Origin: a virus
DNA: 64,000 nt
Virus record (IMG/VR): IMGVR_UViG_3300044730_001016
Location: 1 to 64,000 of that record
Strand: one strand, 5' to 3'
Shown: in pieces, positions 2,929 through 59,997 of the stretch
Numbering within the stretch: position 1 is the stretch's first letter
How the letters are laid out: each line of letters begins with the position of its first letter
Position numbers and translations under genes: made by a program
Notes under the pieces: generated by a model
The model's database searches: none
The model's input: the letters and a program-made list of their open reading frames with translations, nothing else
What the model was told of the DNA's origin: nothing

Positions 2929-3353
2929 AACTCTTTTTTTACTTCTGCCCACCAAGCCCCAGCACCAAAACATGGGCAGGCTTTGTTGACATTCGGAAAG
3001 TCCCGATGCCCTAATACCTTAGCGTTTGGGAACTTATCGGTTAGCTTGGTAACCAGTTCTGCCATTGCTTGCTTCTGTTCTTTAGTACGGTTGTCGGTAG
3101 GCTTACCCTTGGCATCAATGCCGCCGATGTAGCTGATATGAATGCTATCGTGGTTATGGCCCTTTACCCCGTTGGTGGTCTTTTCAATTGGCCAGTTGTC
3201 CACTACCTTGCCGTCCCGTTCAATGATAAAATGGTAACCGGGCGAACCCCAGTTCAGTACCTTTTTATGGTATCGGTTAATGCTGTCAGCCGTGGCCGTT
3301 ATGTTGCTGGCTGTTGTGTGCAGAACGATGTGGTTAATTGGTCGCATCTTCAA
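2925..3353 (-). CDS. endolysin: T7 lysozyme-like N-acetylmuramoyl-L-alanine amidase
   Basis: This 142-residue protein matches the T7 lysozyme/PGRP-type amidase family in full length. Visible zinc ligands are His in IVLHTTAS, His in VLGHRDFPN, and Cys in ACPCF. The GYHFIIERDGKVV strand and NHDSIHISYIGG segment are characteristic. It cleaves the amide between MurNAc and L-Ala in peptidoglycan. There is no signal peptide, so release depends on the adjacent holin. A second Met six nt downstream is an equally possible start. Confidence 0.93.
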   Translation of the reverse strand: MKMRPINHIVLHTTASNITATADSINRYHKKVLNWGSPGYHFIIERDGKVVDNWPIEKTTNGVKGHNHDSIHISYIGGIDAKGKPTDNRTKEQKQAMAELVTKLTDKFPNAKVLGHRDFPNVNKACPCFGAGAWWAEVKKEL

Positions 3354-3606
3354 ATGGGTTTACTGGTGTAGGGGCAACCCAAGGAATCAAAGGCAAATCC
3401 TTAACCCACATAAATTCTTCGTTGGTTGTTTGGTCAATCTCCTCAACCGAAATCACCCAGTTGGGCGGCTCGTTGCCATCTTGAATTGGGTTGTAGTAGC
3501 TGTCAGGGGCAAATAGCTGCCCTACCAAACTATCCTTTTGCGTTTCGGTTAAGAGGCCAACAAACTCGGTTTCTTGGCCTAATGGTATTTCGTTTCGTGT
3601 TATCAT
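3334..3606 (-). CDS. hypothetical protein, tail region
   Basis: The open frame extends to 3708, but the ATG at 3606 sits in an ATGA overlap with the upstream stop and gives a cleaner N-terminus (MITRNEIPLG), so I use it. The product is 90 residues, acidic, with PNWVISVEEIDQ and VKDLPLIPWV and no membrane segment. It lies between a lectin-like tail gene and the endolysin. It may be a small tail or fibre-assembly component; no family recognised. Confidence 0.65.
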   Translation of the reverse strand: MITRNEIPLGQETEFVGLLTETQKDSLVGQLFAPDSYYNPIQDGNEPPNWVISVEEIDQTTNEEFMWVKDLPLIPWVAPTPVNPFEDATN

Positions 3607-4406
3607 ACTTGGCGGCCTAATGTGGTTTGAAATGCTTGTACGGTGGTGTAGTAGTTGGCAGCTTCGGTTGTTGTAAGTTTGCTGCCACCAAGTGAGGCAA
3701 ATGCACATTGTTTGTTACTAAACTGTCCAGCAGTTCCAGCTCCATTTGAGCCTCCAATGTATAGTGAAAACCCGCTTATCAGGTTATTTGGTATTGCAAT
3801 TGACCCTATTTGTGAAGAATTTCTAAATAAAATTTGATTTGTTAAATCAGTAAATGCTTGAAAAAAACCTCGGCTATCTGAATTTGAAACAAAAAGATTG
3901 TATGCACCATTTGCATAAAAAGACTGGTTAGTGTTAAATCTTACCAATAGACCATAAGGCCTTATATTATTACCCGAATTGTTCGCAGAAAAAATTTCAT
4001 AAGGATTGCCAAGATTTGATTGGGTTCTTGAATAAAATGACATTGAATTTTGCAATGAATCACATTCAGCATTTGGAACATAGAAGGTGTCCGCATACGC
4101 ATTTGTGCCGTTGCCCTGAATCCCGTTTGCAGAATGCGTCCAGCCGCCAGAAAAAACCAACCTAAACGCTGCGTTTGCATCTTGCGGGTCTTTTAAGTTA
4201 AACTTATGCGTAGTGGCCGTGCCCCCAACAAATGGGTAAATGGCTTTTAGTTTAGTCCAAATGCCGAAACTTTTGAGCGAAATAACCAAATTGTTTATTG
4301 CCGATGTTATTGTGCCGTCGGTAATGCCAGCCGCAGCCAAAAAAGCAACTGCATCAGGGTCAAGACCTATCTCTCCAGCCATCATTTCTAACCTCAACCG
4401 CCTCAT
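3603..4406 (-). CDS. tail protein with lectin-like (LamG-type) domain
   Basis: A 267-residue protein. After about 65 residues including a helical segment and KAIYPFVGG, the rest is beta-rich with many aromatic and N/G/S turns (NGIQGNGTNAYADT, PYGLLVRFN, SGFSLYIGG). This is the pattern of a concanavalin-like or LamG-like jelly-roll in phage receptor-binding or fibre-tip proteins. Gene position after other fibre genes fits a receptor-binding role. The start at 4406 is 2 nt from the upstream stop; an internal Met pair near residue 8 is an alternative. Confidence 0.65.
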   Translation of the reverse strand: MRRLRLEMMAGEIGLDPDAVAFLAAAGITDGTITSAINNLVISLKSFGIWTKLKAIYPFVGGTATTHKFNLKDPQDANAAFRLVFSGGWTHSANGIQGNGTNAYADTFYVPNAECDSLQNSMSFYSRTQSNLGNPYEIFSANNSGNNIRPYGLLVRFNTNQSFYANGAYNLFVSNSDSRGFFQAFTDLTNQILFRNSSQIGSIAIPNNLISGFSLYIGGSNGAGTAGQFSNKQCAFASLGGSKLTTTEAANYYTTVQAFQTTLGRQV

Positions 4407-9293: not shown

Positions 9294-9687
9294 GATATTT
9301 ACTTGTTTTGGTTGCTATTTTCTTGGGCTGACTACTAAACTGCTTGCCCTTGGCAGTATCACTACGCTTCTTGGCAGAAGTGGCAGCATACTCCTTCGGC
9401 GATAACGCCTCACGCGCTGCCTTTGGTAAATACCGCTCACCAGTAGCCTTCGGCCCCTGCGTAGAAGGCTTGCCACTCTTAGTACCCCACTCCTCCTTAG
9501 TCCACTTACTTAAACTCTTCTGGGCACCACTCTTGCCGCCACTATACCCCCCACCCTTCTTCTCATACTCCTGAGATAAAAGCTGTGCCTTCCGCGCTGA
9601 CCACTGGCCAGGCTTGCCACCCTTGCTAGAAGCCATTACCCTATCCTTAATGCTCTCCCTTAATTTCGGTTTGGTGTAGTTACTCAT
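9283..9687 (-). CDS. DUF5872-like basic protein
   Basis: A 134-residue basic protein with a pattern conserved in many marine phages: KGGKPGQWSARKAQLL near residue 23, KKGGGYSGGKSG, KWTKEEWGTKSGKPS, GERYLPKAAREALSPKEYAAT and GKQFSSQPKKIA. This matches my memory of DUF5872, of unknown function. It overlaps the giant gene by 8 nt and is probably made with it; a nucleic-acid or virion role is plausible. Confidence 0.78.
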   Translation of the reverse strand: MSNYTKPKLRESIKDRVMASSKGGKPGQWSARKAQLLSQEYEKKGGGYSGGKSGAQKSLSKWTKEEWGTKSGKPSTQGPKATGERYLPKAAREALSPKEYAATSAKKRSDTAKGKQFSSQPKKIATKTSKYRGK

Positions 9688-12600
9688 TTGTCAATAAATA
9701 TTTTAGCAGTATCAAATTGTTTATTGCAGACTCGGAGGATATTGGCTTTGAGCTTCTATTATCAGGACGAAGATAAAGTCGCTTGTACTTAGTTGCACTC
9801 GTAGTTTCTGTAATACCTTCTACAACAGACAAGTCCCTTTCGTGCGCCCCAATTTGTTGAACGATATTCTTAAAATCATCACCAGCAACAAACTTCAACG
9901 CAATAAGATATGACCTCCTATTCCTAGAACTGTCATACTCTTTAGCAATTTTGTTAATCATTTCGGCGTTTAAACCAACATAAGAATCCTCACTCTGCGC
10001 ATAACTCTTTAACGCCGGATGCTTGAAAACAAAGTTTGGTTTAAACTCTTCTAAAAGTCTCAACGACAAACGAGTTTGCTCTTTATTGATAACTTTATTA
10101 AGGTCATCTAAGTTCTCAGGAATATCTTTTATGCCTTGATCCTTTATCCCCTTAATCATTTGAGCATCAGAAATATAATTAAACACCTCCCTGTCAAAGA
10201 ATAAATCTATTTTAACATTCTTCGAGTTACCCTCTAACTTGTTAATATCCCGTATCGTCTTGGCAGCAAACTCAATAGCATCATCGTTCTTTTTTTGCCA
10301 AGAACCTATCTGGTCGCGAAGGAAATCAACCTGTTTCCTATCCTTCATATTCTTCTGCTGAACACTACTATTCGGCTCGCGATATACTCTGCTCCCAAAC
10401 GCATTTAAGGCAGCAAACTTCTCGTCCATAAGCGCATCTACCTCTTTCTTATTATCCTTGCCGTATAGCGAAGATATGGTCGCGTAGGTGGACGTAATGC
10501 CAAGGTAGTATGGATTGTTTGAAGATATTGCCTTCTCGAAAGCCGCTTGCCATTGCGCCGGCCCCGCCTCATCAAAACCTAAAACACCCTCATTCTCGCC
10601 ATCCTCATTGATTAAATCATACATAGCACCAAACAAATCACGATAAATAGCCTTCGTTTCCCCTGCGTTGAAACGCTCAGTTAATAACACGTCTGCCCTA
10701 CCACGATACACCGGAGCGCCCTTCCTAAACGCATCCCTATTGTAATTCAAAGCCATAAAAATCTGGGCGGTAGGAGATACAGAACCAATCTCAGGAACAT
10801 AACCACCCTCTAACGCACTTGCCATTTGGCCAATAGTATTCTCCGCCCCTTGGTCAGCAACCATACCGCTAACCAAAATGTTCGTGGCCTTTAACGCAGC
10901 AGGCAACTTAATTGATATGAACGGACGGACAATTTCCCCACGCTCATTCTTCTTAGTCCAAGGCATCATCATTACAAAGAAGTTCGACTTTATGTAATCG
11001 GTAATACCATTGTAGCCAACGATACCCTCTTTTTCATCTTCATCTCCGGAATTAGCATTGTACAGAGCAGCCCCAAGTGCCATACCTCCAAACTCTGCCA
11101 ATCTTGCAGCAGCAAGTAAAGGATTCTTGGATGCAAAATCAATCTCTGCCTTGGCACCTTGAATCATAGCGTTTAAGAAAGGCAGAAGGGTTTGGTCGAA
11201 CGCTTTTGTTGCTTCGGCGCCTTCCCTGAAATCAATCAAATCAGCAGAACTCGCCGCCGCAGACATCTTCATTAACGCTAAATCCTCCCCAACTGGGTCA
11301 ACACCATTCTTCTCCCTATACGCCGCTATGTTTTTATCCAATGCAGCCTCATAAACAATAACCCTAGTAATAAGCTCCGAACCCGATTGCAAAGAATTTA
11401 TTACGTCCAACACAGCAATAATACCATCCATAGCATCACCAAAGCTCCTACGCAAAGCACTACTAGACAGCTTATCACTATACATTCTTGACGAAGGATT
11501 GGAAAGGCCAGACATACCTCCACCATGCTCAAAGTAATCCTTTACAAGACGCTCGAACTTTGAATCCCTGGCAGTTCTACCAAAAAGGGAAGCACCATAC
11601 TTCACCGCCTTGCGATATATGTTCTCCGCAGTATATCCCGTAGCCTTTGCCAAAATAGTACCAAGGTTAAAAGTAAACGACTTATACAAATCCCTAGTAA
11701 CCATTGACGCATGAATTACGTCAAGGGCAAAGTTACCTATCGCAAACGCTGGGTTTACAAATACCGCCGAAGCCTTAATGACCGGAGTTAAAAGAAGCGC
11801 AGATATAGCCTTAATAGCAAAACTGTTCTCGTTAATACCCCTTCCACTTGGCGTTTGAAATATGTTTGCAATATCATTACGAACAGCAACCCTCTTCTCA
11901 ACACCATCTACAAAATACTTCTGCGCAGTAAACCCACTAGGAACCTTCGCATCATTACTCAAAGGAATAAATAACGTCTGCTCCTTTATGAATCTGTCTA
12001 TCTCGTCTTGAGTTAATGGCCTAGGACTAGAACGAAGATACCTCTCCGTTCTAGCACGAGCGTCCTTGAACTTTTCAAGCGCCTTGTCTAAATAATCCTG
12101 CTGCTTAGCTTCCGACCAACCAACAACCTTTTTAATGAAGTTGTTTTTAGCAACACTATCGAAAGTTATTTGAGCGTTAATCTGCAACAAAGCCTGAGTA
12201 TCCATCTCCAATATTGCGTCCTCACTACCTTCCTTGATAGCTTTTATCTCTTTAGATACAGGGGAATAATTTGCTTCATCTAAGGTTGTGTTTGAAAGGT
12301 CAACAAACAACCTGCGAACATAATCACGCTTCTGCATTGAATCGTAAGCCTCCTGAGATATTTCGCCTGAATCTAAACGCATTTTTAACAACTCATTGTT
12401 AGCCTCAGTGTACATTTCGGCGCGATTCCTAATTTTGATTGCCAAAGCATCATTACGAGCGTTTATGTCATTCACAAACGCCTCAGCAAGCGCAACAGTG
12501 TATTCCTCCTTCTTACCATCAACCATAATCGAACCACTCTTAACCTCACCCATGCCCGCCTTTTCAAGCTCCGCCATAGCCTCCTTAATCTCTTGCTTTC

Positions 12601-15600
12601 TTACCGGAGTAACGCCAGCCGCTAATTCAGCTTCGAGTTTCTTATACTCCGCAGCCCTTTGATTGCGTACCTCAGAAACCTCTACAATCCTACGATAAAT
12701 CAAATACTTGTCTAACTCTACCTTCTCAAACCAAGACAACCCACCATAAATCTTGTTGTGGATAGCATTGTACCAATTGCCTGCCTTGGTGGAAGCACCC
12801 ATACGATACTTACGTGCAGAATATACATCACGCTCTTGCGAAGTTCTGTAATCGGAAAACTTACCAGCCCTATACCCAAACGCACGATTAAAGTTTTTCA
12901 CAGGAGTAATAAACGCACGCTGGAACTTGTCAAAGTTTCTGCTCAACCAGTTACGCCTACGCTTTATCTCTTCGTTGATACGCGCCCTTTCCATGTCCCT
13001 CTCTAAGCCTAACAACTCTTCCTTGGTTTCGTGGAACTTCTTTACATCTTCTAGAGTAGTGTACGATTCGGCGCGGTTGGCAGCAGCACGTAACGCGTCT
13101 TGGTACATCTCTTGCACTAACATCATAGCTTGATCGTCTAAACCGTAAATGCTTTCGGCGCGATTCACAAATCCGTTAACCAATGCACTATTTGAAGATA
13201 TAAACTCCTGAAAATTCATATTCATTCGGCCAGACATAGCGGCAATAGAAAAGAGAAAATCATCTTTCAAATCCAATATCTCCTGAGCAAAAGCATCGTT
13301 TATCTCAAAACGAGACTGCGCTGAATGGAATATTGATTTATCAGAATTAGCAACCTCAATCTGCACACCAAAAATCCGCTTGCTGTTCTCCTTCATATCC
13401 TCCACAAAATCCTTGAAGGTGTATGCACCGGCAAGAACCTTTTGGTAAATGTAATCCTTAATCAACGCAAGGGTAGCCCTATCCACCTCCGCTAAACGCT
13501 TGGCGCGAGAAAAAGGCGTTATGCCTGTAATGCCGCCCCTACCTCTTAAATTCTTGCGTATCTTTTCGGCTATCTCTTCGGCGCGCTTGTTGGCTTGTTC
13601 TGCTTTCTCCTTAGAAGTTAAACCTTCGGCGCTGGGTTGCGCTTCGGCGCTGGGTTGCGTTTCGGCGCGATTCAACAACGGGTCAATCAACGCCCTAGTA
13701 AACGCTCCATCAACGCCATTCCCCAAAACTTCCTTCGCAATCTTTGGGTTGGAAGGTATAGGATAACTCTCAGGCAATCCCATAAGCCTACGCATCATCT
13801 CAGGAGTTACCCTCTTAACTGTGCCATCAGGCAAAATAATCCTTGGAACAGAACGCGAAGTGCTTAATAACGTAGGCGCAGGGCCGCCAGCATTGGCAGC
13901 AGCAGCCACACCGCTAGAAGCAGAACCACCCATAGTAATGATTGGCTTGGTTGCATCTAACTTACCCTTACGCACCATATCCTTAATCCTAGTCATCTCC
14001 CAATTCTCACTCTCACTCCTAGATTCAAACTTTGAATCCGGAGCGCCTTCAATCAAATCCTCTATTGCAGAATACCAATCCCCAGGAGCAGTTTTCTCTT
14101 GGATAGGTGGCAGTTCGCCACTCTTCACAGCACGAATTAACAGACGCTCCCTATTTTGAACACCACCGAAATCCGCAGAGTTGTAAACTCCAACATCAAA
14201 GGTGTAGCCCGCATCTTCTAACGCCTTTACTATTGTTTCAAATGGAACAGTGCCTTGGTAGTCAGGAACATTTTCTATCGTTACAATCGGTGGTTGTGCC
14301 TCACGAATAACCCTCGCAACAGCATCAGCCGATTCCATATCTGACTTCAAAACTGTTCGTTTATTCTTGGCCGCCGAAAAGTTCTTGCAAACAGGAGAAG
14401 CATGGAATATGTCCGGCTTAGAAGCTATCACTTCCTCAGGGTTAATATCCCTAACATCTTTGGCTTCATACTCAACACCAAAGGCTTTGTTGTACGCTTC
14501 AACGTACGCTGGGTTGAACTCAACAGCCATAACAGATTGGGCGTTGGGTAAAGACGCTTCCATTGTGCCTGCACCAGAGAAAAAGGTGGCTACACGACTT
14601 GGCTGCCTTTGCCCTTCGGCGGCTTCCACCACCCCAGGAACCTCTGGGGTAACACCCTCGGTAGATACCTCTTCGGGGGTAACTGTTTCGGCGGTTTCTA
14701 CCGCTTCGGGAGTTTCCACCTCAGGCACAACCGCACCACCAATAACCGCATCCTCCACCGCCATAACAACAGCGTCCTCAGCCTCAGTACGCTCCTCCTT
14801 GCCTATCGCTTCGTGGTAGATACGCGCACCTTCCTCGGCACTCTCTATGCCCTCAGGTAACACCTCTAGCGATTCTAACGCAATACGTGTGGTGTCCTCG
14901 GTTGATAACACTTCCGCTACCTCTGGGGAAATAACCTCGGCAGGTTGCCCTTCGGCGACTTCGGGCGTTTGGGTGGGTTTGCCTAACAACTCCTCTACCG
15001 CACTAACTAACTCAGGATTGCTTCCGTCCTCCTTCGCCTTGTGGTAGGCTTCGGAAAGTTGTTTTGGTTTGGAAGAAATTATAGATTTGATAAATGCCAA
15101 TCCAGATATGTAATCTTCTTTGTCGTAGTATTTCTCAAGCAGCTCTGTTTGCTCTTCACTAAACAATCCTATATTTAATTCTAAAAGCCTGATAAAATCT
15201 TGCCTTATTGTTTCATTTTTAAATTCAGTTGGGACTAAAACCTCTATCTCTCCACCTCCAATATAATTCACAGCACCATAAGTATCAATGGGCTTTATTT
15301 TAATTTCTTTAACTTGTCCTTTGCCTATGGCTTGTTCATCAGCGTATGCAGAAACCCTATTTTTTGTAGTAGAAAAAGCTGAAAATCCTTCTTGGCCAAC
15401 GCCCTTTTTATCAGCCAAAGTAACACCCCTATAAAGAGTAATTTCGGTATTTAAAAAATCATCAAAAGAGCCCTTGAAGTTTAACTCTGACTTATATACA
15501 TCAAAAAATAAAGAAAGCATTGCATTTCTTAATTTAGGGTCATTTTGTATATCTTCAACTATAAACTTTTTATTTGCTGCGTTTATAGATTGAAACCATC

Positions 15601-18600
15601 CCGCCCATCTTGTTGCTGGAGATTTTGAGTTCCCACTTTTATAATGAGTGTAACTTTCTATAATTTCCCTTGCTTCACCTTCTTCAATATATTCAACTTT
15701 GTCTATTTTTTTTGAAGCGTCAATAATTTCTTGTGGGTTTTTATTATTAACCCCCTCCAACGCCTCAGCCGTACTCTCTACATCTCTTAACGCAGGAACC
15801 TCAGGAGAAACCGCCTCAGGAGTAACAGCCTCCCCCTCAACTTTCGGAGTAGCCTCAACCGCCGAAACACTCTCAGGCAACACACCGCTATCCTTATATG
15901 CCTTATACTCAGCATCACTTAACTTAACCTCTCTATCCCCTACCTTTGCGAAATAATCAAAACCACCAGTAGGTACTAACTTAGTCCTGTCCTTGTTTAA
16001 CTTCTGCCTACGCTTGGCAATTATTTCAACCTTCGGCGCGCCCCCCGTTTCGGGAATAGGCTCGAAAGTTACCTCCAAAGGAGAAGTAGCCTCAGCAACC
16101 TGACGCGTACCAACACCAACAACACCCCTATCAAACTCAATAGCAGAACGCTCTAACATAGAAGTTACTAACTCCCTACCCTTACCATCTACCTTTAACT
16201 TAGGTAACTCATTCGCAATAAAATCACGCACCTTGGAAGGAGACTTCATAACCTCAGTTACAGCGTCCCAAACACCCTTGTTAATGGTTTCGGTAGTAGG
16301 CAGGTTGTTAATGTCCCTATACGTTACCGTAACGCCCTCAGGGGCTATTTTGTTGATAGCTAAACCACCCAAACTAACTGAACCGCCAGCAAGGCTAATA
16401 GGCAATAAGGTGCGAGCAATATCGGCCAAGTTCTCAGTATCAAACTCCCCGTCCTTAATGATGCCCTCCATTACCTTCGCATCACCAGTAATCAAATTGG
16501 TCAACGGTATGTTTACAAGCTCTTCGCCAAACTCCATCAAAAATCCATTCCAACCACCCATCTCCGCAATCTTCTTAAACGCAGTAGGTGTATCTAAATT
16601 GAACTTGCTCATATACCAACCCACATACGCCTTCTTCAAAAACTCATTCTGCAACATCTTACTCCCCAACGCTTTCATTGCCCTCGCTCCCGCAAAACCT
16701 AACCCCTCAGAGAAATACTCGGAAGCGGTTACACCAAAACCTTTTAACGCAGCCTCAAAGCCACCCTCAGCATCACTGCTGTCTAACATGGCAACCAAAT
16801 CATCACCCTCAGGAGAAAACGCAATAGTCATCTGGGGCGTCATACGCTTCAACGTTTCATCTACATAACGCTGAGGGTTTAACGTGGTTTGCGCTAACGA
16901 ACTAACAAGCGTTCCAGCAAGAACCTTAAACGACTTGCCAACCATCGTTTCTGCCTGTTTGCCAAGCAACTTTACAGCAACCTTTTCAGTTGCTATCCTT
17001 ACGCCACTACCTATCCCTGCGGTGGCAGCAAACTCCATCATAAAAGGTAAACTCTCGGCAGTACCCCTACCAGCCCTATACCAATCCGAAGCCATGTTGT
17101 TTACCTCATACATATTTTTGTATGTGGAATTTAACGCTTCGGCGTTTTTCAAATATCGGGCAGATTCAGTGTCCTTACCCACAGCACGATACAACGCCAA
17201 CGTGCCACTCAAATTCTTTAACCCAGAAACAAAAGGCAAATAATCAACAACCTTCCCAGAAGTTAACCCATTCCAAAAATTCGACCACTCATTATCCGAC
17301 ATCGTTTCAGGCATCTCAATTATCTCCTGTAACTTTTCCCTCGCTAACCGCAACTCCTGAACGTCAGTATCATCATAACCCATACCGCCAACACCAAACT
17401 CCGAACCATATATCCCAGAAGTGTATGTCTTAGTGCCAGTCTTTGCCTCACGCTCTTTAAGCATCTCGTCAAGACGTTCAGCCTCCTCAATAGCACGCGT
17501 CTTTACCATAAACAAAGAAGGAGTACCCTTCTTGGTAAAATACGCCCTATCCATAAACGCATCGTCAAACTCAGCACGCAACCCAGCAACAACACCATCG
17601 TTTATCTGAACACCACTACGCTTTAACTTAGATAAGGCAGTGCCAAACATAGTATCCAACGCAGCCTTCTTCTGGTCGAAAGGTAAGTAATCCCAACCCC
17701 TATTTCCCAAAATCTTGTCAATATTACCCTTTACCCCAGACTTGTTAAGCAAAGGAGTTTCACCCTTCATGCTATTCGTTATAGCACTCTCAATCTTAGA
17801 GTTGTACTTAGGGGCAATATTGTTGAACACCGCCTGCTGAATCTTTTGGTAATCGCCAGAAAAACTCTCAACAACCCCATTACGCAAGTCGTTCAACTCG
17901 TCCATGTAAGCCTTGAACTCTGGCTTATCCTTAACACCCTTTTGTACCCTTTCGGCCAAGGCGCTAACGCCGGAATTATACTCCCCCAACGCCTCATCAC
18001 TCTGCTTCTGCAACTCCGCACCATAAGCATCTAAATCACGCTTTAAGCCTTCATTGGCTTCGTTAACACCCATCTGCCCATTATTCACCTTGGTCTGATA
18101 GTCAAACTTCAACTCACTCGCCTTGGTTTCTAATTGCATAGGTAAAGCAAGCGTGGCAGATTCGTACTTGCCCAACAATTCCTTCTCGCCAACCTTAAAC
18201 TCCTCACCCATCAAAGCCTTAAAATCATACTTCTCATCAACACCTACTCGCTGACTATTAAACTCAGCATCTATCTTTCCCCTTAACGCTACATAATCTC
18301 TGTTGGATAATAACTCTTTTTGTATAGCCTCGTTGCGCTCTTTTTCGATTGGAGCATATAGCGTCTTGAACCTTTCAAACTGAGTAGTCTTGCCCGTTGC
18401 ACCCTTTTCTAAAAACATATTTATCTCTTCGGCGCCCTTCTTATCCCCGGCAGCCTCTTGACTTAAATACGTGGCTAAATTGTTCGTAGTGAAAAGACCA
18501 TTCTGCGAAGCCTTAATCACAAACTCAGGGTCAGCCTCCATAGCCCTACCTAAATCATTTATCTCTTCCTGAACATCCTTCGCAGCAGCCTTGCCAAATA

Positions 18601-19120
18601 ACCTAGTCAAAGCCGGTATCGTTTCCACCGCACGCTCCGTTACCCTGCGATAACGCTCCTCGCCAAAAAGACGCTCAAAGAAATTCCTATCGTCCTCCTC
18701 AACAATCGTGTAAGGGTCTAACTCCTGCCCAATAATCGTAGGCTCACCCTCTGAGCCAACCTCCCCAACCAACGCAGCAGCCTCAGCAACCGGCGCACCC
18801 TTTGGCTCAACACCGGGAGGCGTTCCCCCAGCAGGTGGCCCTACCTCAAATTCGCTCGATACGGATTCGGTAGGGGAAAAACTTTCTTCGGATTGCGCCC
18901 CAGCAAGTGGGGCCTCCACCTTTCCCAGGCTTCCAAACGCATTAGAATTAAACTCCTCAAATGTGGCCTCAGGCATACTCGGCTGGACGTAGTTCTCAAA
19001 TAAACCCACCTTGTACTCCTCGTTATCCCTAATCTTATCTACCCAACCCTCAAAGGTTATGTCTTCACGCACAGGAGCTATGTTCTCCTCAAATATGCCT
19101 TTTAGTATCTCTTTACTCAT
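9680..19120 (-). CDS. giant 3146-aa polyvalent virion (ejection) protein with ART and C5-MTase domains
   Basis: The largest gene here, overlapping the 542-aa gene at TAATG. N-terminal about 1100 residues are helical with coiled coil and hydrophobic stretches (about 690-720 and 760-860). About 1150-1310 is an arginine ADP-ribosyltransferase-like domain: LYRG near 1228, FSAFSTT near 1247, GEIEVLVP near 1288 (R-S-E order). About 1505-1810 is a full cytosine-C5 methyltransferase: FFSGAG near 1511, SPVCKNFS near 1577, ENV near 1618, C-terminal GNGV. QPSAEA repeats form a linker near 1825. About 2450-2690 is a hydrophobic, helix-rich segment resembling the LPD38-type domains of polyvalent proteins. 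Position after two cargo-like genes suggests an internal virion protein ejected with the DNA, like T7 gp16, delivering effectors early. Catalytic activity and ejection are inference. Confidence 0.85.
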   Translation of the reverse strand: MSKEILKGIFEENIAPVREDITFEGWVDKIRDNEEYKVGLFENYVQPSMPEATFEEFNSNAFGSLGKVEAPLAGAQSEESFSPTESVSSEFEVGPPAGGTPPGVEPKGAPVAEAAALVGEVGSEGEPTIIGQELDPYTIVEEDDRNFFERLFGEERYRRVTERAVETIPALTRLFGKAAAKDVQEEINDLGRAMEADPEFVIKASQNGLFTTNNLATYLSQEAAGDKKGAEEINMFLEKGATGKTTQFERFKTLYAPIEKERNEAIQKELLSNRDYVALRGKIDAEFNSQRVGVDEKYDFKALMGEEFKVGEKELLGKYESATLALPMQLETKASELKFDYQTKVNNGQMGVNEANEGLKRDLDAYGAELQKQSDEALGEYNSGVSALAERVQKGVKDKPEFKAYMDELNDLRNGVVESFSGDYQKIQQAVFNNIAPKYNSKIESAITNSMKGETPLLNKSGVKGNIDKILGNRGWDYLPFDQKKAALDTMFGTALSKLKRSGVQINDGVVAGLRAEFDDAFMDRAYFTKKGTPSLFMVKTRAIEEAERLDEMLKEREAKTGTKTYTSGIYGSEFGVGGMGYDDTDVQELRLAREKLQEIIEMPETMSDNEWSNFWNGLTSGKVVDYLPFVSGLKNLSGTLALYRAVGKDTESARYLKNAEALNSTYKNMYEVNNMASDWYRAGRGTAESLPFMMEFAATAGIGSGVRIATEKVAVKLLGKQAETMVGKSFKVLAGTLVSSLAQTTLNPQRYVDETLKRMTPQMTIAFSPEGDDLVAMLDSSDAEGGFEAALKGFGVTASEYFSEGLGFAGARAMKALGSKMLQNEFLKKAYVGWYMSKFNLDTPTAFKKIAEMGGWNGFLMEFGEELVNIPLTNLITGDAKVMEGIIKDGEFDTENLADIARTLLPISLAGGSVSLGGLAINKIAPEGVTVTYRDINNLPTTETINKGVWDAVTEVMKSPSKVRDFIANELPKLKVDGKGRELVTSMLERSAIEFDRGVVGVGTRQVAEATSPLEVTFEPIPETGGAPKVEIIAKRRQKLNKDRTKLVPTGGFDYFAKVGDREVKLSDAEYKAYKDSGVLPESVSAVEATPKVEGEAVTPEAVSPEVPALRDVESTAEALEGVNNKNPQEIIDASKKIDKVEYIEEGEAREIIESYTHYKSGNSKSPATRWAGWFQSINAANKKFIVEDIQNDPKLRNAMLSLFFDVYKSELNFKGSFDDFLNTEITLYRGVTLADKKGVGQEGFSAFSTTKNRVSAYADEQAIGKGQVKEIKIKPIDTYGAVNYIGGGEIEVLVPTEFKNETIRQDFIRLLELNIGLFSEEQTELLEKYYDKEDYISGLAFIKSIISSKPKQLSEAYHKAKEDGSNPELVSAVEELLGKPTQTPEVAEGQPAEVISPEVAEVLSTEDTTRIALESLEVLPEGIESAEEGARIYHEAIGKEERTEAEDAVVMAVEDAVIGGAVVPEVETPEAVETAETVTPEEVSTEGVTPEVPGVVEAAEGQRQPSRVATFFSGAGTMEASLPNAQSVMAVEFNPAYVEAYNKAFGVEYEAKDVRDINPEEVIASKPDIFHASPVCKNFSAAKNKRTVLKSDMESADAVARVIREAQPPIVTIENVPDYQGTVPFETIVKALEDAGYTFDVGVYNSADFGGVQNRERLLIRAVKSGELPPIQEKTAPGDWYSAIEDLIEGAPDSKFESRSESENWEMTRIKDMVRKGKLDATKPIITMGGSASSGVAAAANAGGPAPTLLSTSRSVPRIILPDGTVKRVTPEMMRRLMGLPESYPIPSNPKIAKEVLGNGVDGAFTRALIDPLLNRAETQPSAEAQPSAEGLTSKEKAEQANKRAEEIAEKIRKNLRGRGGITGITPFSRAKRLAEVDRATLALIKDYIYQKVLAGAYTFKDFVEDMKENSKRIFGVQIEVANSDKSIFHSAQSRFEINDAFAQEILDLKDDFLFSIAAMSGRMNMNFQEFISSNSALVNGFVNRAESIYGLDDQAMMLVQEMYQDALRAAANRAESYTTLEDVKKFHETKEELLGLERDMERARINEEIKRRRNWLSRNFDKFQRAFITPVKNFNRAFGYRAGKFSDYRTSQERDVYSARKYRMGASTKAGNWYNAIHNKIYGGLSWFEKVELDKYLIYRRIVEVSEVRNQRAAEYKKLEAELAAGVTPVRKQEIKEAMAELEKAGMGEVKSGSIMVDGKKEEYTVALAEAFVNDINARNDALAIKIRNRAEMYTEANNELLKMRLDSGEISQEAYDSMQKRDYVRRLFVDLSNTTLDEANYSPVSKEIKAIKEGSEDAILEMDTQALLQINAQITFDSVAKNNFIKKVVGWSEAKQQDYLDKALEKFKDARARTERYLRSSPRPLTQDEIDRFIKEQTLFIPLSNDAKVPSGFTAQKYFVDGVEKRVAVRNDIANIFQTPSGRGINENSFAIKAISALLLTPVIKASAVFVNPAFAIGNFALDVIHASMVTRDLYKSFTFNLGTILAKATGYTAENIYRKAVKYGASLFGRTARDSKFERLVKDYFEHGGGMSGLSNPSSRMYSDKLSSSALRRSFGDAMDGIIAVLDVINSLQSGSELITRVIVYEAALDKNIAAYREKNGVDPVGEDLALMKMSAAASSADLIDFREGAEATKAFDQTLLPFLNAMIQGAKAEIDFASKNPLLAAARLAEFGGMALGAALYNANSGDEDEKEGIVGYNGITDYIKSNFFVMMMPWTKKNERGEIVRPFISIKLPAALKATNILVSGMVADQGAENTIGQMASALEGGYVPEIGSVSPTAQIFMALNYNRDAFRKGAPVYRGRADVLLTERFNAGETKAIYRDLFGAMYDLINEDGENEGVLGFDEAGPAQWQAAFEKAISSNNPYYLGITSTYATISSLYGKDNKKEVDALMDEKFAALNAFGSRVYREPNSSVQQKNMKDRKQVDFLRDQIGSWQKKNDDAIEFAAKTIRDINKLEGNSKNVKIDLFFDREVFNYISDAQMIKGIKDQGIKDIPENLDDLNKVINKEQTRLSLRLLEEFKPNFVFKHPALKSYAQSEDSYVGLNAEMINKIAKEYDSSRNRRSYLIALKFVAGDDFKNIVQQIGAHERDLSVVEGITETTSATKYKRLYLRPDNRSSKPISSESAINNLILLKYLLTNE

Positions 19121-28978: not shown

Positions 28979-28991
28979 AATATCTCGTTTA

Positions 28992-29015
28992 TTTCGCCTA
29001 TACGATAGTTATGCC
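28992..29015 (-). repeat. attC-half-like motif at cassette end (copy 1)
   Basis: On the minus strand this reads GGCATAAC, 5 nt, then GTATAGGCGAAA, directly over and after the stop codon of the small ORF. It matches the copies at 34015-34037 and 58857-58879 in 18 of 20 compared bases. A mirror GTTATGCC lies at the ORF start (29220-29227 on the plus strand reads GGCATAAC). Confidence 0.55.
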
Positions 29016-29224
29016 TCATTTTCAACAGCCGACAATTCTGACAATTTATAAGTGAAGCTAACCCACTTAATACCTTCTTCAAACGCTCTTTCTGTGCTGT
29101 ACCAAACAACTGCTTCGGCTCTTTCGGGTTGCAAATAAAGTCCGTTGTGTGGCATTTCAATAGCTACTATAATACCAATACCATGTTCTGTTTTGACTTC
29201 CTGTCCGATAAAAAAACAAGGCAT
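29009..29224 (-). CDS. hypothetical protein in a cassette-like unit
   Basis: The frame is open to 29281, but an ATG at 29224 sits inside GTTATGCC and the stop TAA lies inside the mirror motif GGCATAAC, so I use 29224 (71 aa: PCFFIGQEVKTEHGIGIIVAI...). The product has a compact beta start reminiscent of small KOW/SH3-like or YopX-like folds; no family is certain. Start and stop inside an inverted pair of core-like motifs is what integron cassettes look like. The longer start at 29281 cannot be excluded. Confidence 0.55.
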   Translation of the reverse strand: MPCFFIGQEVKTEHGIGIIVAIEMPHNGLYLQPERAEAVVWYSTERAFEEGIKWVSFTYKLSELSAVENEA

Positions 29225-29398
29225 AACAGCAGTTTGGCGCAAGCTGCGAGTGTAGTCTGATAATTTAGTTTCCGTTTCCATATTTTATATTTGTTGTTTT
29301 ATGCTTAATTCTTTGTTTTTGTTCTTCTTTCATAATCATATTTGCATCATTTTTGCGTCATTAAAGGTACAAAATAGGGTTAATGAATGGTTTATTGG

Positions 29399-32880: not shown

Positions 32881-33621
32881 TTAGAATATCCCTCTATGTT
32901 CTGCCACTCTCTTCAAAATAATTTCGTAATACTTCTCCTCCTTCTCCATTACAATAAATTGGCGGTTGGTATTAAAACACGCTATCGCAGTCGTTCCGCT
33001 CCCTGCTGTGTTATCCAAAACTAAATCACCCTCATTGGTGTAGGTTTTGATTAAATACTCAAATAGTTCAGTTGGTTTTTGCGTTGGGTGCATACCTCTA
33101 TCGCATTTGAAAAATTGAACTGAACTCGGAACTCTTAAATCAGAAATGCTATCTGCTTTTTTTTCTTCCATTACCCTGTAATTCTCGCTTTTTGGCTTCC
33201 AATGGAATTTTTGTTTTGCCCTTGCCAATCCACTCCCTTTGCGTTCTTCCATTTGCTTATTGTAAGTCCATTTGCCATTACTAAATATTAAAACGCTTTC
33301 GTGTTCTTTCATTGGCTCTCTTACTGTATTTGCAAAATTACTTCCTCTATCTTTGTTCCAAATCCACTCGTGTCTAAACATTTCAAAATTTGACGAAACA
33401 AGTTTTGAAGTAAATGGCTGTCCTGCTGTTAGTGCTATTACTCCATTTGGCTCTATAATCCTTTTATATTGCTTCCAAAGTTCAGTTAAATCAATTTCAC
33501 AATCCCACTTATTACTTGTCATTCCATAAGGTAAATCACAAAGTATCATATCAATACTTCCGTTTGGTATGTCCTTCATAAGTTCTAAGCAATCTCCTAA
33601 TAGTATTTCTTGCTTGCTCAT
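32881..33621 (-). CDS. N4/N6-type DNA methyltransferase
   Basis: A 246-residue beta-class methyltransferase: GDCLELMKDIPNGSIDMILCDLPYGM at the N-terminus (motif IV as LPYG), then NTAGSGTTAIACFNTNRQFIVMEKEEKYYE near the C-terminus (motif I with GSGTT). This order is typical of N6-adenine or N4-cytosine methyltransferases. The canonical DPPY is DLPY here. No restriction partner is nearby, so it is an orphan methyltransferase. Its first codon overlaps the stop of a 33-codon remnant that resembles the start of a second methyltransferase. Confidence 0.92.
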   Translation of the reverse strand: MSKQEILLGDCLELMKDIPNGSIDMILCDLPYGMTSNKWDCEIDLTELWKQYKRIIEPNGVIALTAGQPFTSKLVSSNFEMFRHEWIWNKDRGSNFANTVREPMKEHESVLIFSNGKWTYNKQMEERKGSGLARAKQKFHWKPKSENYRVMEEKKADSISDLRVPSSVQFFKCDRGMHPTQKPTELFEYLIKTYTNEGDLVLDNTAGSGTTAIACFNTNRQFIVMEKEEKYYEIILKRVAEHRGIF

Positions 33622-33722
33622 TAGAAATTAAATTTGAGTTGAGTAGGTATAGCGTCAAAATGATTGTCTGGGTACTCCCTTAATAGGTCAATGTTATTGC
33701 CACAAATTACGTTTTGATCCAT
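33621..33722 (-). pseudogene. truncated N-terminus of a second DNA methyltransferase
   Basis: A 33-codon ORF with a typical beta-class methyltransferase start (VICGNNIDLLREYPDN then HFDAIPT), which normally continues into DPPYG, but here runs into QLKFNF and stop. The TAATG junction overlaps the start of the intact methyltransferase. The simplest reading is a deletion that removed the body of an adjacent paralogue, possibly by recombination between the two similar starts. It may still be translated. Confidence 0.6.
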
Positions 33723-33741
33723 AGTGTTGCGTTGAAAAAAT

Positions 33742-33925: not shown

Positions 33926-34014
33926 AATTGTTTGGGTTCTAAACGGAAACGAAATTCGTACCCTATCGGTAGTTGGATGCTTGGTTTCTAATGCAGCCGC
34001 ACCCTATCGGGGGT

Positions 34015-34037
34015 TGTTTCGCCTATACATTAGTTAG
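34015..34037 (-). repeat. attC-half-like motif (copy 2)
   Basis: These 23 bases are an exact reverse complement of 58857-58879. On the minus strand they read CTAAC, 5 nt, then GTATAGGCGAAACA, starting 9 nt after the stop of the 69-aa ORF. Copy 1 is at 28992-29015. Confidence 0.75.
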
Positions 34038-34177
34038 CGGTAAGTTTAAGGGACATTTTGTCCTTTATTTTGTCCTTTATAAAATCTACGGTAGTCTTTG
34101 TAAAAATCTATTCCGCAAACAACCCAACAAAAAAACTCGGTTATGTAATAGCGAATAGGAACAAACCTACCGCTAAC
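34033..34177. repeat. 145-bp unit with 15-bp inverted ends
   Basis: 34033-34047 (GTTAGCGGTAAGTTT) and 34163-34177 (AAACCTACCGCTAAC) are inverted repeats matching in 14 of 15 positions. The unit covers the C-terminal half of the 69-aa ORF, implying that this half arrived by insertion. The end motifs look like the complementary core boxes of a small cassette. Confidence 0.6.
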
Positions 34178-34255
34178 ATCGGTTTGTTGCAAGGCGGGTT
34201 TTTGTGCTTCTTTTGCCATTTTAGCGAAGTGTTTCCAATCTCTTTCGTCTGCCAT
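34046..34255 (-). CDS. small chimeric protein (MADERDW-type N-terminus)
   Basis: A 69-residue ORF. The first 25 residues (MADERDWKHFAKMAKEAQ) look like a small phage protein family found in Bacteroidota phages. From about residue 27 (VSGRFVPIRYY) the sequence lies within the 145-bp inverted-repeat unit and has a different character, with a hydrophobic stretch ITEFFCWVVCGIDFY. Probably a fusion created by insertion; the original C-terminus may be lost. Confidence 0.5.
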   Translation of the reverse strand: MADERDWKHFAKMAKEAQKPALQQTDVSGRFVPIRYYITEFFCWVVCGIDFYKDYRRFYKGQNKGQNVP

Positions 34256-34277
34256 TTTGTTTCAGTTTAATTTCGTG

Positions 34278-34574
34278 TTAGCAAGCCGTATAGCACGTAT
34301 CGGCTTCGGGTTTTTTGAAAGAATTAACAAGCGTTTGCAAAGAATTGGTATCGATAACAGGGATGCGTTGATAGATATGCCCATCTTCGGGGCGAATTAC
34401 AAACAGTTGGCAAAGGCGTGTTTCTTGATTCCAGTCCAGCATCAGCGTGGGGGCAAGCATCTTGGTAAAGATTTTGTACTCGTAGCCGTGTTGTCTTTCA
34501 AACACAGGGTCGTGCCCGCTTTCCATGTTGAAGCCAAGGGCCATAATGTCGCAAAAGTTAATTGGTTGTTGCAT
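34278..34574 (-). CDS. hypothetical protein
   Basis: A 98-residue protein (NFCDIMALGFNMESGHDPVF, TRLCQLFVIRPEDGHIYQRIP). No domain recognised; length and tight packing with neighbours support it. Its last codons (ACGGCTTGCTAACACG) again place the stop inside a CTAAC core-like motif, as in the cassette-like units nearby. Confidence 0.6.
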   Translation of the reverse strand: MQQPINFCDIMALGFNMESGHDPVFERQHGYEYKIFTKMLAPTLMLDWNQETRLCQLFVIRPEDGHIYQRIPVIDTNSLQTLVNSFKKPEADTCYTAC

Positions 34575-34577
34575 GGG

Positions 34578-34793
34578 TTATTTGTTAAAGGTTTCTTTGT
34601 AGTATTCTTCAAATGTCATAATCTCATCATAGCATTTACAACCTCCGTGAGATATCGCTGCATGCCATAAATTCTTCATTTTATCCTTCTCCATTTCTTT
34701 GGCTTGGGCTAAATGTTTATAATCAAAAGGTTCGTTACTTGCAAAATATCTTTCAATTAGCCATTCCACTGCGGTTTGTTGTTTGTTGCTCAT
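34578..34793 (-). CDS. KQQTAVEWL-family small protein (paralogue 1)
   Basis: I start at ATG 34793, because the promoter box at 34811-34818 lies downstream of the longer start at 34838. The 71-residue product begins MSNKQQTAVEWL, has HLAQAKEMEKDKM in the middle and EYYKETF at the end. Two further paralogues with the same three blocks lie at 61657-61902 and 61899-62105. Function unknown; the pattern is common in Bacteroidota phages. Confidence 0.75.
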   Translation of the reverse strand: MSNKQQTAVEWLIERYFASNEPFDYKHLAQAKEMEKDKMKNLWHAAISHGGCKCYDEIMTFEEYYKETFNK

Positions 34794-34810
34794 GGGTGTT
34801 TTTGTTTCTG

Positions 34811-34818
34811 CAAACCTA
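34811..34818 (-). promoter_or_regulatory. -7 promoter box TAGGTTTG
   Basis: Minus-strand TAGGTTTG; predicted start near 34806, 13 nt before ATG 34793. It drives the small minus-strand genes down to the terminator at 33905-33925. Confidence 0.55.
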
Positions 34819-34856
34819 AATAAAAAACCAACACGCAAATGTTAATAAGTGTTAAA

Positions 34857-34925
34857 AATAAAAACTCCCCCCACTTACGCGGAGGGAGCTAAACCTTAAC
34901 CTATGAGCAAAAAACACAAAACTCA
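34857..34925 (-). ncRNA. candidate short terminated RNA
   Basis: A -7 box TATATTTG at 34930-34937 predicts a start near 34925. About 40 nt later comes a hairpin (CTCCC 34865-34869 with GGGAG 34884-34888, extended stem) followed by TTTTTATTTT on the minus strand. The predicted RNA is about 65-70 nt and has no ORF of note. It lies between the capsid operon terminator and the accessory genes. Confidence 0.4.
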
Positions 34926-57914: not shown

Positions 57915-58054
57915 AAATGTTGATATTGATTATCGTTTCGGCGGCCTTGGGCATTCCAGAATATGAAGTTAAAACCATTGATGGGGAGTGCGGAAAACTA
58001 TACACCTCCGAGCCACATGAAGTTGGAGATACAATAATAATCTGCATGCCATGA
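57911..58054 (+). CDS. small exported or membrane peptide
   Basis: A 47-residue ORF with a hydrophobic start (MKMLILIIVSAALGIP) and a polar tail with a CGKLYTSE motif and two Cys. It overlaps both neighbours by 4 nt (ATGA type). Probably exported or membrane-attached; role unknown. Confidence 0.55.
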   Translation: MKMLILIIVSAALGIPEYEVKTIDGECGKLYTSEPHEVGDTIIICMP

Positions 58055-58212
58055 TTGCCATAGCTGTTTTACTCATGGTATCAGTGTTTATCTACTATGA
58101 CAACAAAGTGGTAAACTGCGAGCATCTTGATGTTGAAGATGTTGCCGTTATAATGCTATCCGTTGTGGCCGCTTTTCTTTTAACTATTATTAACATTTGT
58201 GTATTGAAATAG
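58051..58212 (+). CDS. small two-helix membrane protein (target of cassette insertion)
   Basis: A 53-residue ORF with two hydrophobic helices (MIAIAVLLMVSVFIYY and AVIMLSVVAAFLLTIINICVL). The DNA coding for its last helix (58161-58198) is duplicated at 58889-58926, on the other side of the cassette-like unit. This suggests the cassette inserted at or near the 3' end of this gene. Confidence 0.6.
   Translation: MIAIAVLLMVSVFIYYDNKVVNCEHLDVEDVAVIMLSVVAAFLLTIINICVLK
58161..58198 (+). repeat. 38-bp direct repeat, left copy
   Basis: Matches 58889-58926 in 37 of 38 positions (one A/T difference). Distance between copies is 728 bp. Confidence 0.9.
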
Positions 58213-58216
58213 TTTG

Positions 58217-58224
58217 TAGGTTTG
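58217..58224 (+). promoter_or_regulatory. possible -7 box TAGGTTTG
   Basis: TAGGTTTG just after the stop of the small membrane gene and just before the attC-like hairpin. It could drive the cassette gene. Confidence 0.35.
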
Positions 58225-58232
58225 GGGTGTAA

Positions 58233-58324
58233 ATAACGTTTTGCGTGTTTATGTCAGGCGGGCATAGCACGAACTTAATTACTAATCGCAAGTTGTCCGC
58301 CCGCTTGCATAAACACGCTGTTAT
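58233..58324 (+). repeat. attC-like imperfect hairpin
   Basis: Paired blocks in order: ATAAC (58233-58237), GCGTGTTTATG (58243-58253), GCGGGC (58258-58263), AACTT (58272-58276), then AAGTT (58290-58294), GCCCGC (58299-58304), CATAAACACGC (58308-58318) and GTTAT (58320-58324). Each block pairs with its mirror, with unpaired bulges of unequal length on the two arms. This is the layout of a folded integron attC site of about 92 nt. The core boxes do not match the RYYYAAC/GTTRRRY consensus exactly. Confidence 0.75.
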
Positions 58325-58362
58325 ACGCAGCCTTTTATTTGTTAAATTTTAAAATCAAGAAT

Positions 58363-58848
58363 ATGAAAAACTTAGAAAATAAAGAAATCCTTTCAGATGA
58401 AATATTCAACGCAATTTCACTGATTATTAAACAAACTCCAAATGCCGTTTTCGGCGGATCAATTGCCTTAAATGCTGTTGGATTAATTAATAGACCTATT
58501 TCTGATATTGATTTGTTTTTTGGAATGAATGAAAGTTTATCTAAAAATGGATATTTATCAGTTGAAACTATTGGAGAAATAACTTCCGATACGGTTACTA
58601 ATACAAATGGCATTGAAATACAAAGAACTGGGGCTAAAATAGCAGGTGTAAAAACCTGTTGTTTTAAAGTATCTGATGAAGAATTGCAATGCTCGAAACA
58701 CAAATTTACCAGGAATGAAACTGAAATAAGTATTTGCATTCAAAACGTGAATTATGCAATTGAAGCAAAAAAATCTTATTCAAGTCTAAATCCAAAGCAT
58801 AAAAAAGATTTAGAAACTATCTCGAATGTGCTGGACTGTCTTTTTTAA
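58363..58848 (+). CDS. nucleotidyltransferase-fold protein on a cassette-like unit
   Basis: I start at ATG 58363 (161 aa), which lies after the hairpin; the longer frame needs a TTG. The motif FGGSIALNAVGLINRPISDIDLFF (GGS, then R, then DIDL) at about residues 30-55 is the nucleotidyltransferase core seen in AbiEii/MNT-type and related toxins or tRNA-modifying enzymes. It is short; the rest is beta-rich with three Cys (VKTCCF, ELQCSKH). AT content is higher than in the flanking genes. Possible roles are toxin, antitoxin partner or anti-phage function; none is shown. No partner gene is adjacent. Confidence 0.72.
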   Translation: MKNLENKEILSDEIFNAISLIIKQTPNAVFGGSIALNAVGLINRPISDIDLFFGMNESLSKNGYLSVETIGEITSDTVTNTNGIEIQRTGAKIAGVKTCCFKVSDEELQCSKHKFTRNETEISICIQNVNYAIEAKKSYSSLNPKHKKDLETISNVLDCLF

Positions 58849-58854
58849 GGTTGT

Positions 58855-58879
58855 GCCTAACTAATGTATAGGCGAAACA
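58855..58879 (+). repeat. attC-half-like motif at cassette end (copy 3)
   Basis: GCCTAAC (58855-58861, exact RYYYAAC) then GTATAGGCGAAACA. GCCTA (58855-58859) pairs with TAGGC (58869-58873). It starts 7 nt after the stop codon of the nucleotidyltransferase-like gene. 58857-58879 is the exact reverse complement of 34015-34037. Confidence 0.8.
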
Positions 58880-58888
58880 GCCCTACTT

Positions 58889-58926
58889 CGTTGTGGCCGC
58901 TTTTCTTTTAACTATTTTTAACATTT
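58889..58926 (+). repeat. 38-bp direct repeat, right copy
   Basis: Second copy of 58161-58198, 37 of 38 identical. No ORF uses it in frame here beyond a short remnant. Confidence 0.9.
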
Positions 58927-58956: not shown

Positions 58957-59997
58957 ATGCTAACCAACAAACACAACCTCCCAGAGGTAATCTTCAAAGC
59001 CGCCCATTGCGAAACGTACATTAGCAAGGGGGATATAAGCGTTACCAGTCTTATTGACAGCCCAAAGATTCGGCAGTTCAAAAAGAAATATGCCAACAAG
59101 GTACACAAAGACGTGGTAGATATGCTCCCAGCTATTGAGGGCACAGCACTACACTATGTACTTGAAATGGCCGATGTGTATAACGCCGATGCCAGAACCT
59201 TGCACCGAGCCATAGAAGTTCTTGACAAGCTAGTCAGCCAGTTCAACAACCGAGAGCAGATGCCCCTATATTTCAAATCAAAAGAAATTAGGGAAGGGCT
59301 GCAAGAAGTGTTAACTTCCGGCTTCCCATATTACCGCAAGTATGTTATCACTGAGGAGATAATGCAAGTTGAAGTGTTGGGCTGGCATCTAAAGGGGCAG
59401 TTTGATAGGGTAGAGCTTGATAAGAGGAAGCTCATTGACTTTAAGAAGGTGTCGGTATGGTCTTATGCCAACAAGTACGAATCTCGGCAGCACAACCTTC
59501 AACAGAACATTTACCGGTGGATGATTAAAAAGGAACTTGACATAGACATTGCCCAATCGGTACTTGTTAAGTGGTTCAGGGATTGGCAGAAAAGTAAGGC
59601 ACAGTCCACATCTTCATCTGTATATCCACCCCAAAGGGTAATGGAAATTGAGGTCCCGCTAATGGGCTTTAAGGAGGTTGAGGAGTATGTTACCGAAAGG
59701 ATCGCCTTGCACCAGAAGGTAGAGCTTGAAGGGCCGGACTCTTACCAATGCACCCCAGAGGAGAAGTGGCAGAGTGCAAGTGCCTGGAAGGTGTATAATG
59801 CCAACCCAGAGAAGCAGAAGAGGTCTTTAGCGAGTGAGTTTTACCGCGAGAACGATGCTTTGCAGTGGGTGTTGGAGAATGAGCATAAGCACCCAGAGGG
59901 CGTGATAGTAAAAAAGATTGAGGGCGAGAACAAGCGCTGCAACGATTACTGTGAGTTTAAAGATTTTTGCAAACAATATAAATTAGAAAACCAATGA
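58957..59997 (+). CDS. PD-(D/E)XK nuclease (Cas4/RecB-like)
   Basis: A 346-residue protein. The nuclease core reads GTALHYVLEMADVY (N-terminal helix with His), then GQFDRVELDKRKLIDFKKV near 150 (D...DxK) and the QHNLQQNIYRWM helix near 175. This matches the RecB/Cas4-like PD-(D/E)XK family. The C-terminus has three Cys (CNDYCEFKDFC), too few for a full Fe-S site as seen. It probably acts as a recombination exonuclease with the downstream RecF/SMC-like ATPase. Confidence 0.88.
   Translation: MLTNKHNLPEVIFKAAHCETYISKGDISVTSLIDSPKIRQFKKKYANKVHKDVVDMLPAIEGTALHYVLEMADVYNADARTLHRAIEVLDKLVSQFNNREQMPLYFKSKEIREGLQEVLTSGFPYYRKYVITEEIMQVEVLGWHLKGQFDRVELDKRKLIDFKKVSVWSYANKYESRQHNLQQNIYRWMIKKELDIDIAQSVLVKWFRDWQKSKAQSTSSSVYPPQRVMEIEVPLMGFKEVEEYVTERIALHQKVELEGPDSYQCTPEEKWQSASAWKVYNANPEKQKRSLASEFYRENDALQWVLENEHKHPEGVIVKKIEGENKRCNDYCEFKDFCKQYKLENQ

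Follow-up and report, generated by a model that had tools for sequence, protein, structure and literature searches.

Integrons and CALINs have already been described in phages, and laboratory work has shown IntI1 to recombine attC sites of phages (PMC9892861); the platform reported here is a variant of these phage integrons. In the work of Qi et al. 2023 (PMC9892861), which includes Polaribacter phage P12002L, attC-like sites and small cassettes, methyltransferases among them, likewise occur in phages without an integrase, a Bacteroidota phage among them. The loci analysed here differ from those in their conserved attI-terminator and promoter modules, in the XerA-type recombinases that lie next to the same attI-like site in relatives and in the cassettes that read towards attI. 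A similar overlap of gene start and box is visible by eye in P12002L; the covariance model used below finds no match there.

With the classical integron these loci share hairpin attC sites with RYYYAAC / GTT-like boxes, a single attI-like site, a putative common promoter, exchangeable cassettes and a recombinase gene that points away from the array, whereas the recombinase here is devoid of the IntI-specific insert, the genes of the phage arrays point towards attI and the R' box is often GTTATNN instead of GTTRRRY. In the atypical integrons of Treponema (PMC3607928) integrase and cassette genes also lie on one strand, but there the integrase gene is directed at attI, with the cassettes behind it, whereas here the array comes first and the recombinase stands after attI, reading away. 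Complete integrons are reported to be very rare in Bacteroidota, IntegronFinder 2.0 having found one in Bacteroidetes proper, in Salinibacter (PMC9024848). In Riemerella, aph(3')-IVb is taken up independently of homology and carries an attC-like stem-loop, the mechanism being given there as unknown (PMC13148043). This is likewise a Bacteroidota gene with an attC-like stem-loop that integrates without flanking homology, but the stem-loop lies downstream of the gene and no recombinase is named. The Xer pdif module, in which 28-bp dif-like sites surround a gene, is unlike the hairpin attC architecture. In the openly accessible journal literature searched, attC arrays with a XerA-type recombinase, orphan attI-terminator platforms and the erm(F) unit described below were not found to have been reported.

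The sequence analysed (hereafter the window) comprises 64,000 of the 65,101 bases of the IMG/VR virus record IMGVR_UViG_3300044730_001016, a tailed-phage-like genome that encodes a portal protein and an exonuclease. Its promoter style and its relatives suggest a host among the Bacteroidota. The comparison sequences are metagenomic contigs, GenBank records excepted.

The cassette and its platform

The attC-like site occupies positions 58231–58330 of the plus strand and consists of the box AAATAAC (58231–58237), a long imperfect hairpin with a 1-nt T bulge and the box GTTATAC (58320–58326). Folded as DNA, this segment reached −25.8 kcal/mol (z = −4.1), and none of 200 shuffles was as stable. It was also the top-scoring AAC...GTT hairpin of the window, with 21.0 against 20.4 for the best of 40 shuffled windows, a difference that is modest when taken alone. 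An attC covariance model was built from 18 sites of other phages and plasmids with the window hairpin left out; one training sequence, a different attC, came from the sibling phage L015. Over the 64 kb searched, this model recognised the hairpin with 48.5 bits (E = 5.6e-10, E-values being rough because of the short calibration), the next match in the window being 34302–34167 (E = 0.025). Beyond the training loci, matches were obtained in L073, L071, L069 and L075 and at two sites in Polaribacter phage Leef_1. The complete attC-like hairpin claimed in the preliminary description was thus confirmed by fold, shuffles and covariance search. Rfam at gathering thresholds yielded no match in the window, and the DNA of the hairpin region found none in plasmids and phages. 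Complementarity between GTT...AAC cassette ends was too weak to serve as evidence by itself, shuffles scoring equally.

When compared with RYYYAAC / GTTRRRY, the box GCCTAAC at 58855–58861 (plus strand) fits, and GTTATAC and AAATAAC are not exact. The usual boxes of this attC family are GTTATNN / NNATAAC, and the imperfect core boxes, which had been raised against a cassette, are real but normal for the family. Alignment of the attC sites showed that their loops share AGCAC...TTTAATAGAA...AGCAC and that either arm can carry the 1-nt T bulge; the arm varies among sites, and the recombining strand is therefore not fixed by it.

As in an integron cassette, the imperfect palindrome is accompanied by a single gene (58363–58848, plus strand), which starts after the attC and encodes a small nucleotidyltransferase-fold protein of 161 amino acids with a G-G-S...D-x-D motif. 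Its stop codon (58846–58848) is followed 6 bases later by GCCTAAC, gene and exact box lying where they had been placed before. Fold matches were weak (JHP933; MenT1 with TMq 0.55; no E-value below 0.001). Membership of the AbiEii / MNT-type toxins was not found, as PF08843 scored 12 bits against a cut-off of 22.5, PADLOC returned no match and the cassette holds no partner gene; a defence-toxin role for the gene is therefore not supported. Relatives of the gene with 66–94% identity are present in the phage contigs L005–L008, the copy of L007 being without a recognisable attC. Searches of the phage and plasmid collections with the protein gave no match, and a search of genome contigs with its alignment gave no relative. 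L005 contains a Dam-like ORF (EKFYDLFGGGGLF) that is interrupted at about 3600, immediately ahead of CGCTGTTATATG and the nucleotidyltransferase gene, and two more attC-like sites lie at 1506–2033 of the same contig.

The edges of the cassette were located by comparison with two relatives. The sibling L015 (98.8–99% identical) matches the window on the left as far as 58240 and on the right from 58857 onwards; the interval is filled by about 1 kb of different small genes, with two or three attC-like sites among them. Both variable regions begin and end at AAC, the left AAC being AGC in L015. The gene copy of L008 (94% protein identity over the available part) ceases to match the window right after 58861, where AAC ends. 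Both comparisons, which are independent of each other, put the edge of the cassette at the AAC of the inverse core and its attC ahead of the gene, so that the cassette extends from AAC 58235–58237 to AAC 58859–58861.

The upstream position of the hairpin, which had been regarded as an objection, is real; it does not count against a cassette, since the cassettes are bounded at AAC and read towards attI, as in the arrays of related phages. In L008, L040, L042, L045, L047 and L051 the cassette genes are oriented towards attI, beyond which the recombinase gene lies on the same strand. Several ORFs have predicted starts inside an attC and extend across the right arm of this site (MQKDSINHETPAIGNVLLCEG and MKKAELTTETPADAKPVLCEV in L015, MNDLPQNPQSNIGAVMRS and MNIEKLSNEAENPALNKGAVRRS in L045). 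For such predicted starts, a unit bounded at R' would sever the start, whereas a unit bounded at AAC keeps the gene whole.

The 38-bp direct repeat around the insert was found as previously described, its copies at 58161–58198 and 58889–58926 (both plus strand) being identical at 37 of 38 positions. The left copy runs from the 3' end of a small membrane-protein ORF (58051–58212) into the platform promoter; the right one overlaps a terminator-like module and precedes the exonuclease gene (58957–59997). Two relatives, L016 and L017 (about 90 and 87% identical), each carry a single copy of the repeat and no insert, which provides the empty site. The slot is hence empty in two relatives and filled with other cassettes in a third (L015), and the captured-cassette reading is supported by the empty site, the covariance match and these other cassettes. 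The 690-bp insert is real, but it is not the cassette as such, since it also contains the attI-like site and the greater part of the promoter module. The repeat does not mark the cassette boundary, but the edges of a platform composed of promoter, cassette, attI-like site and terminator-like sequence. It belongs to a terminator-promoter module found at other platforms, a further related copy lies within the L015 array, and it is not produced by cassette integration.

The putative platform promoter (58196–58224, plus strand), of the Bacteroidota type by its consensus, was read from the sequence as TTTG (58196–58199), 17 nt and TAGGTTTG (58217–58224). The left module to which it belongs, TTGAAATAGTTTGTARGTTTGGGGT, recurs in L015, L072 (twice), L085 and L086.

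The attI-like site and the recombinases of related phages

The motif that closes the cassette opens an attI-like site, AACTAATGTATAGGCGAAACA, in which AAC is followed by TAATGTATAGGCGAAACAG. In the window this site is AACTAATGTATAGGCGAAACAG (58859–58880, plus strand; short form AACTAATGTATAG), and no recombinase gene stands beside it. The alternative that the end motif is what remains of a second, truncated attC belonging to this cassette was given up, because the motif also occurs next to recombinase genes. There is one copy of AACTANTRTAT in each of the loci L040, L042, L043, L044, L045 and L051, at most about 80 bases upstream of the recombinase start (the site sequences of L043 and L044 are identical), and the window contains only two copies, at 58859 and 34035, each at a cassette end. 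In L040, a 60-kb phage contig, the cassette array closes with GGTAACTAATGTATAGCCCAATG and the tyrosine recombinase starts about 50 bases further on. The motif is inexact in L008, L047, L052 and L060, where a diverged but related sequence takes its place. The attI-like site and the promoter of the platform are thus assigned by sequence, the attI motif being common to the recombinase loci.

A scan with a longer attI motif returned 21 stretches, several of them redundant. The motif stands alone in about a dozen distinct related phages, where a terminator-like or other short conserved sequence follows and no recombinase was seen within the 110 bases read. The last genes before these sites differ, and their stop codons either overlap AAC by 2 bases or lie 8–22 bases ahead. 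Since non-recombinase sequence follows the motif and varied genes precede it, we refer to such loci as orphan attI platforms. In L072 three attI-bearing units are arranged in tandem, and two of these are preceded by the promoter module that the window also has. The terminator-like module of the window (58880–58909, plus strand), GCCCTACTTCGTTGTGGCCGCTTTTCTTTT, is degenerate and was not called by a simple terminator scan; relatives have it intact as GCCCTACTTCGGTGGGGCTTTTTT. Promoter and terminator sequences recur within the phage.

The lack of an integron integrase, noted earlier for the window, was confirmed and extended to the whole 65,101-base record, in which the PF00589 profile and the L040 recombinase as queries revealed no tyrosine recombinase or integrase. 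An integrase gene next to attI is, by contrast, present in L008, L040, L042, L043, L045, L047 and L051. As an objection to the cassette, the missing integrase holds for the record itself, but it fits an orphan platform, relatives encoding the enzyme beside the same attI-like site. These recombinases are 266–287 amino acids long and their best profile is NF040815 (XerA / 'integron integrase'; 182–234 bits, cut-off 220), whereas TIGR02249 gave partial matches of 117–205 bits (cut-off 265). The IntI-specific insert is missing, residues 181–240 of IntI4 (2A3V) being unmatched. The L008 enzyme found only distant relatives (23–36% identity) in the genome contigs, and L053 has no cassette array. The isolate Polaribacter phage Leef_1 has the same layout of array, attI-like site and recombinase, and is recognised by the attC model.

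In Leef_1 (L047, MT732473; 2600–4755), the 'integrase' used for the call of a potentially temperate phage sits at the end of the array and may be a cassette recombinase. The same may be true of some other 'integrases' of flavobacterial phages, which have been taken as a marker of temperate phages (PMC8776804).

Related units in the window and on plasmids

A second platform was identified on the minus strand (34011–34862), with a promoter module at about 34860–34811, the attC-like site 34302–34167 (E = 0.025), an ORF (34255–34046) that starts inside this attC, the end CCGCTAAC and an attI-like site at 34035–34014. A third cassette-like unit (28992–29281, minus strand) consists of an ORF (29281–29009) that passes through CTG^TTATGC (GTT at 29227) and ends with GGCATAAC (29008), after which TATCGTATAGGCGAAA follows. 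This unit is absent from the sibling G009, in which 28979–29335 is missing. Single-gene insertions of 0.2–0.9 kb in which an obvious attC is absent were also observed, in the window at 32887–33734 and in siblings at window positions 43385, 44288 and 51299.

Similar units are carried by plasmids. Two Bacteroidota plasmids are identical from AAC TACTGGATATCC to the end of the recombinase gene; upstream of this stretch they diverge, one of them having an erm(F) unit there. The attC that precedes erm(F) recurs on plasmids of several Bacteroidota genera, and the segment common to the loci read runs from AAC^G to CCGCATAAC between differing flanks. Plasmids of Flagellimonas, Bacteroides, Sphingobacterium and Myroides provided the left edge, and those of Flagellimonas, Bacteroides, Riemerella and Myroides the right one; in Bacteroides the two edges come from two neighbouring copies, with the gene in view in only one. 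On Bacteroidota plasmids (L059, about 2574–3866, and L061–L065) erm(F) appears as an AAC-to-AAC unit with the attC upstream. Such attC sites adjoin tet(X), OXA-347, ere(D) and estT, the last on an Acinetobacter plasmid. tet(X) and OXA-347 are neighbouring units oriented opposite to erm(F) on plasmids; hence, the notion that all cassettes of the family are reversed was dropped, and orientation is considered a trait of the phage arrays, not of the family.

Proposed mode of exchange and alternative explanations

Comparison of the sequences shows that what lies between the two AAC edges has been exchanged among phages that are otherwise almost identical, and that edges of this kind are found again in other phages and on plasmids. 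We read the locus, with a probability of roughly three in four, as a one-gene integron-like cassette in an integrase-less platform whose content would be exchanged by a XerA/integron-type tyrosine recombinase acting in trans, in a phage that probably infects Bacteroidota. Since the record encodes no recombinase, supply in trans is what we infer; the enzyme could come from a co-infecting phage, like L008 or L040, or from the host. It would join the folded attC hairpin to the attI-like site, so that cassettes enter beside attI, read in its direction and have the platform promoter as the source of their transcription. In the phage contigs that encode the recombinase, its gene lies just beyond the attI-like site. 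Such Xer-type enzymes are not known to use folded attC sites.

An ordinary CALIN, that is, a fragment of a classical host array gained by illegitimate or homologous recombination and now inert, is unlikely, although CALINs of phages have been published (PMC9892861) and the record has no integrase. A CALIN has by definition at least two attC sites close together and no integrase; the window has a strong site (58231–58330) and a weak one (34302–34167) 24 kb apart. Against this reading, one set of promoter and attI-terminator modules is found with varying cargo, phages that are otherwise almost identical differ by swapped content, and the cassette edges are exact. Another possibility is that genes are swapped through ordinary homologous recombination at the conserved sequences (terminator, promoter and attI-like), the hairpins being incidental; it is favoured by the recurrence of promoter and terminator sequences in the phage. 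Close relatives also differ by many small-gene insertions or deletions free of attC signs, so that other gene exchange is active. This explanation is nevertheless improbable, as the breakpoints fall at AAC instead of being scattered along the common sequence, these units have attC sites according to the covariance model and the attI-like site adjoins a tyrosine recombinase in relatives.

The inverse core after the stop codon and the pairing of GTTATAC with GCCTAAC as R' and R'' would suit a classical IntI cassette with its attC downstream of the gene, the upstream hairpin being left by a lost neighbour. However, the sequence after the box differs between the window and L008, some ORFs start within the upstream attC and read through it, and the erm(F) attC stays upstream on plasmids of several genera, which makes this arrangement very improbable. 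A transposon-like insertion with a 38-bp target-site duplication, the slightest of these chances, was rejected: a direct repeat does surround an insert missing from relatives, but there is no transposase, the content varies between fixed edges, and the repeat is part of the terminator-promoter module of other platforms, with the extra copy of L015 inside an array.

Exchange of AAC-bounded cassettes by a recombinase in trans, if it occurs, would give phages a plug-in slot for accessory genes and account for the movement of erm(F)-type resistance genes as exact units through Bacteroidota. It would also bear on the homology-independent uptake in Riemerella, which is still without an enzyme (PMC13148043). 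These data suggest a little-noticed gene-capture system common to phages and resistance plasmids. The further proposal of a distinct integron class of Bacteroidota and their phages, with an insert-less Xer-type recombinase acting on folded attC sites, orphan attI platforms through which phages that lack the enzyme borrow it in trans, and mobilisation of erm(F), tet(X) and related resistance genes, has in our judgement an even chance of being correct; standard integron searches keyed on the IntI insert would miss such a class.

The slots and arrays of these phages contain DNA methyltransferases of the Dam, D12 and C5 types, which might serve in restriction evasion. A DNA methyltransferase domain (about residues 1497–1860) is also present in a 3,146-amino acid ORF of the window (9680–19120, minus strand).
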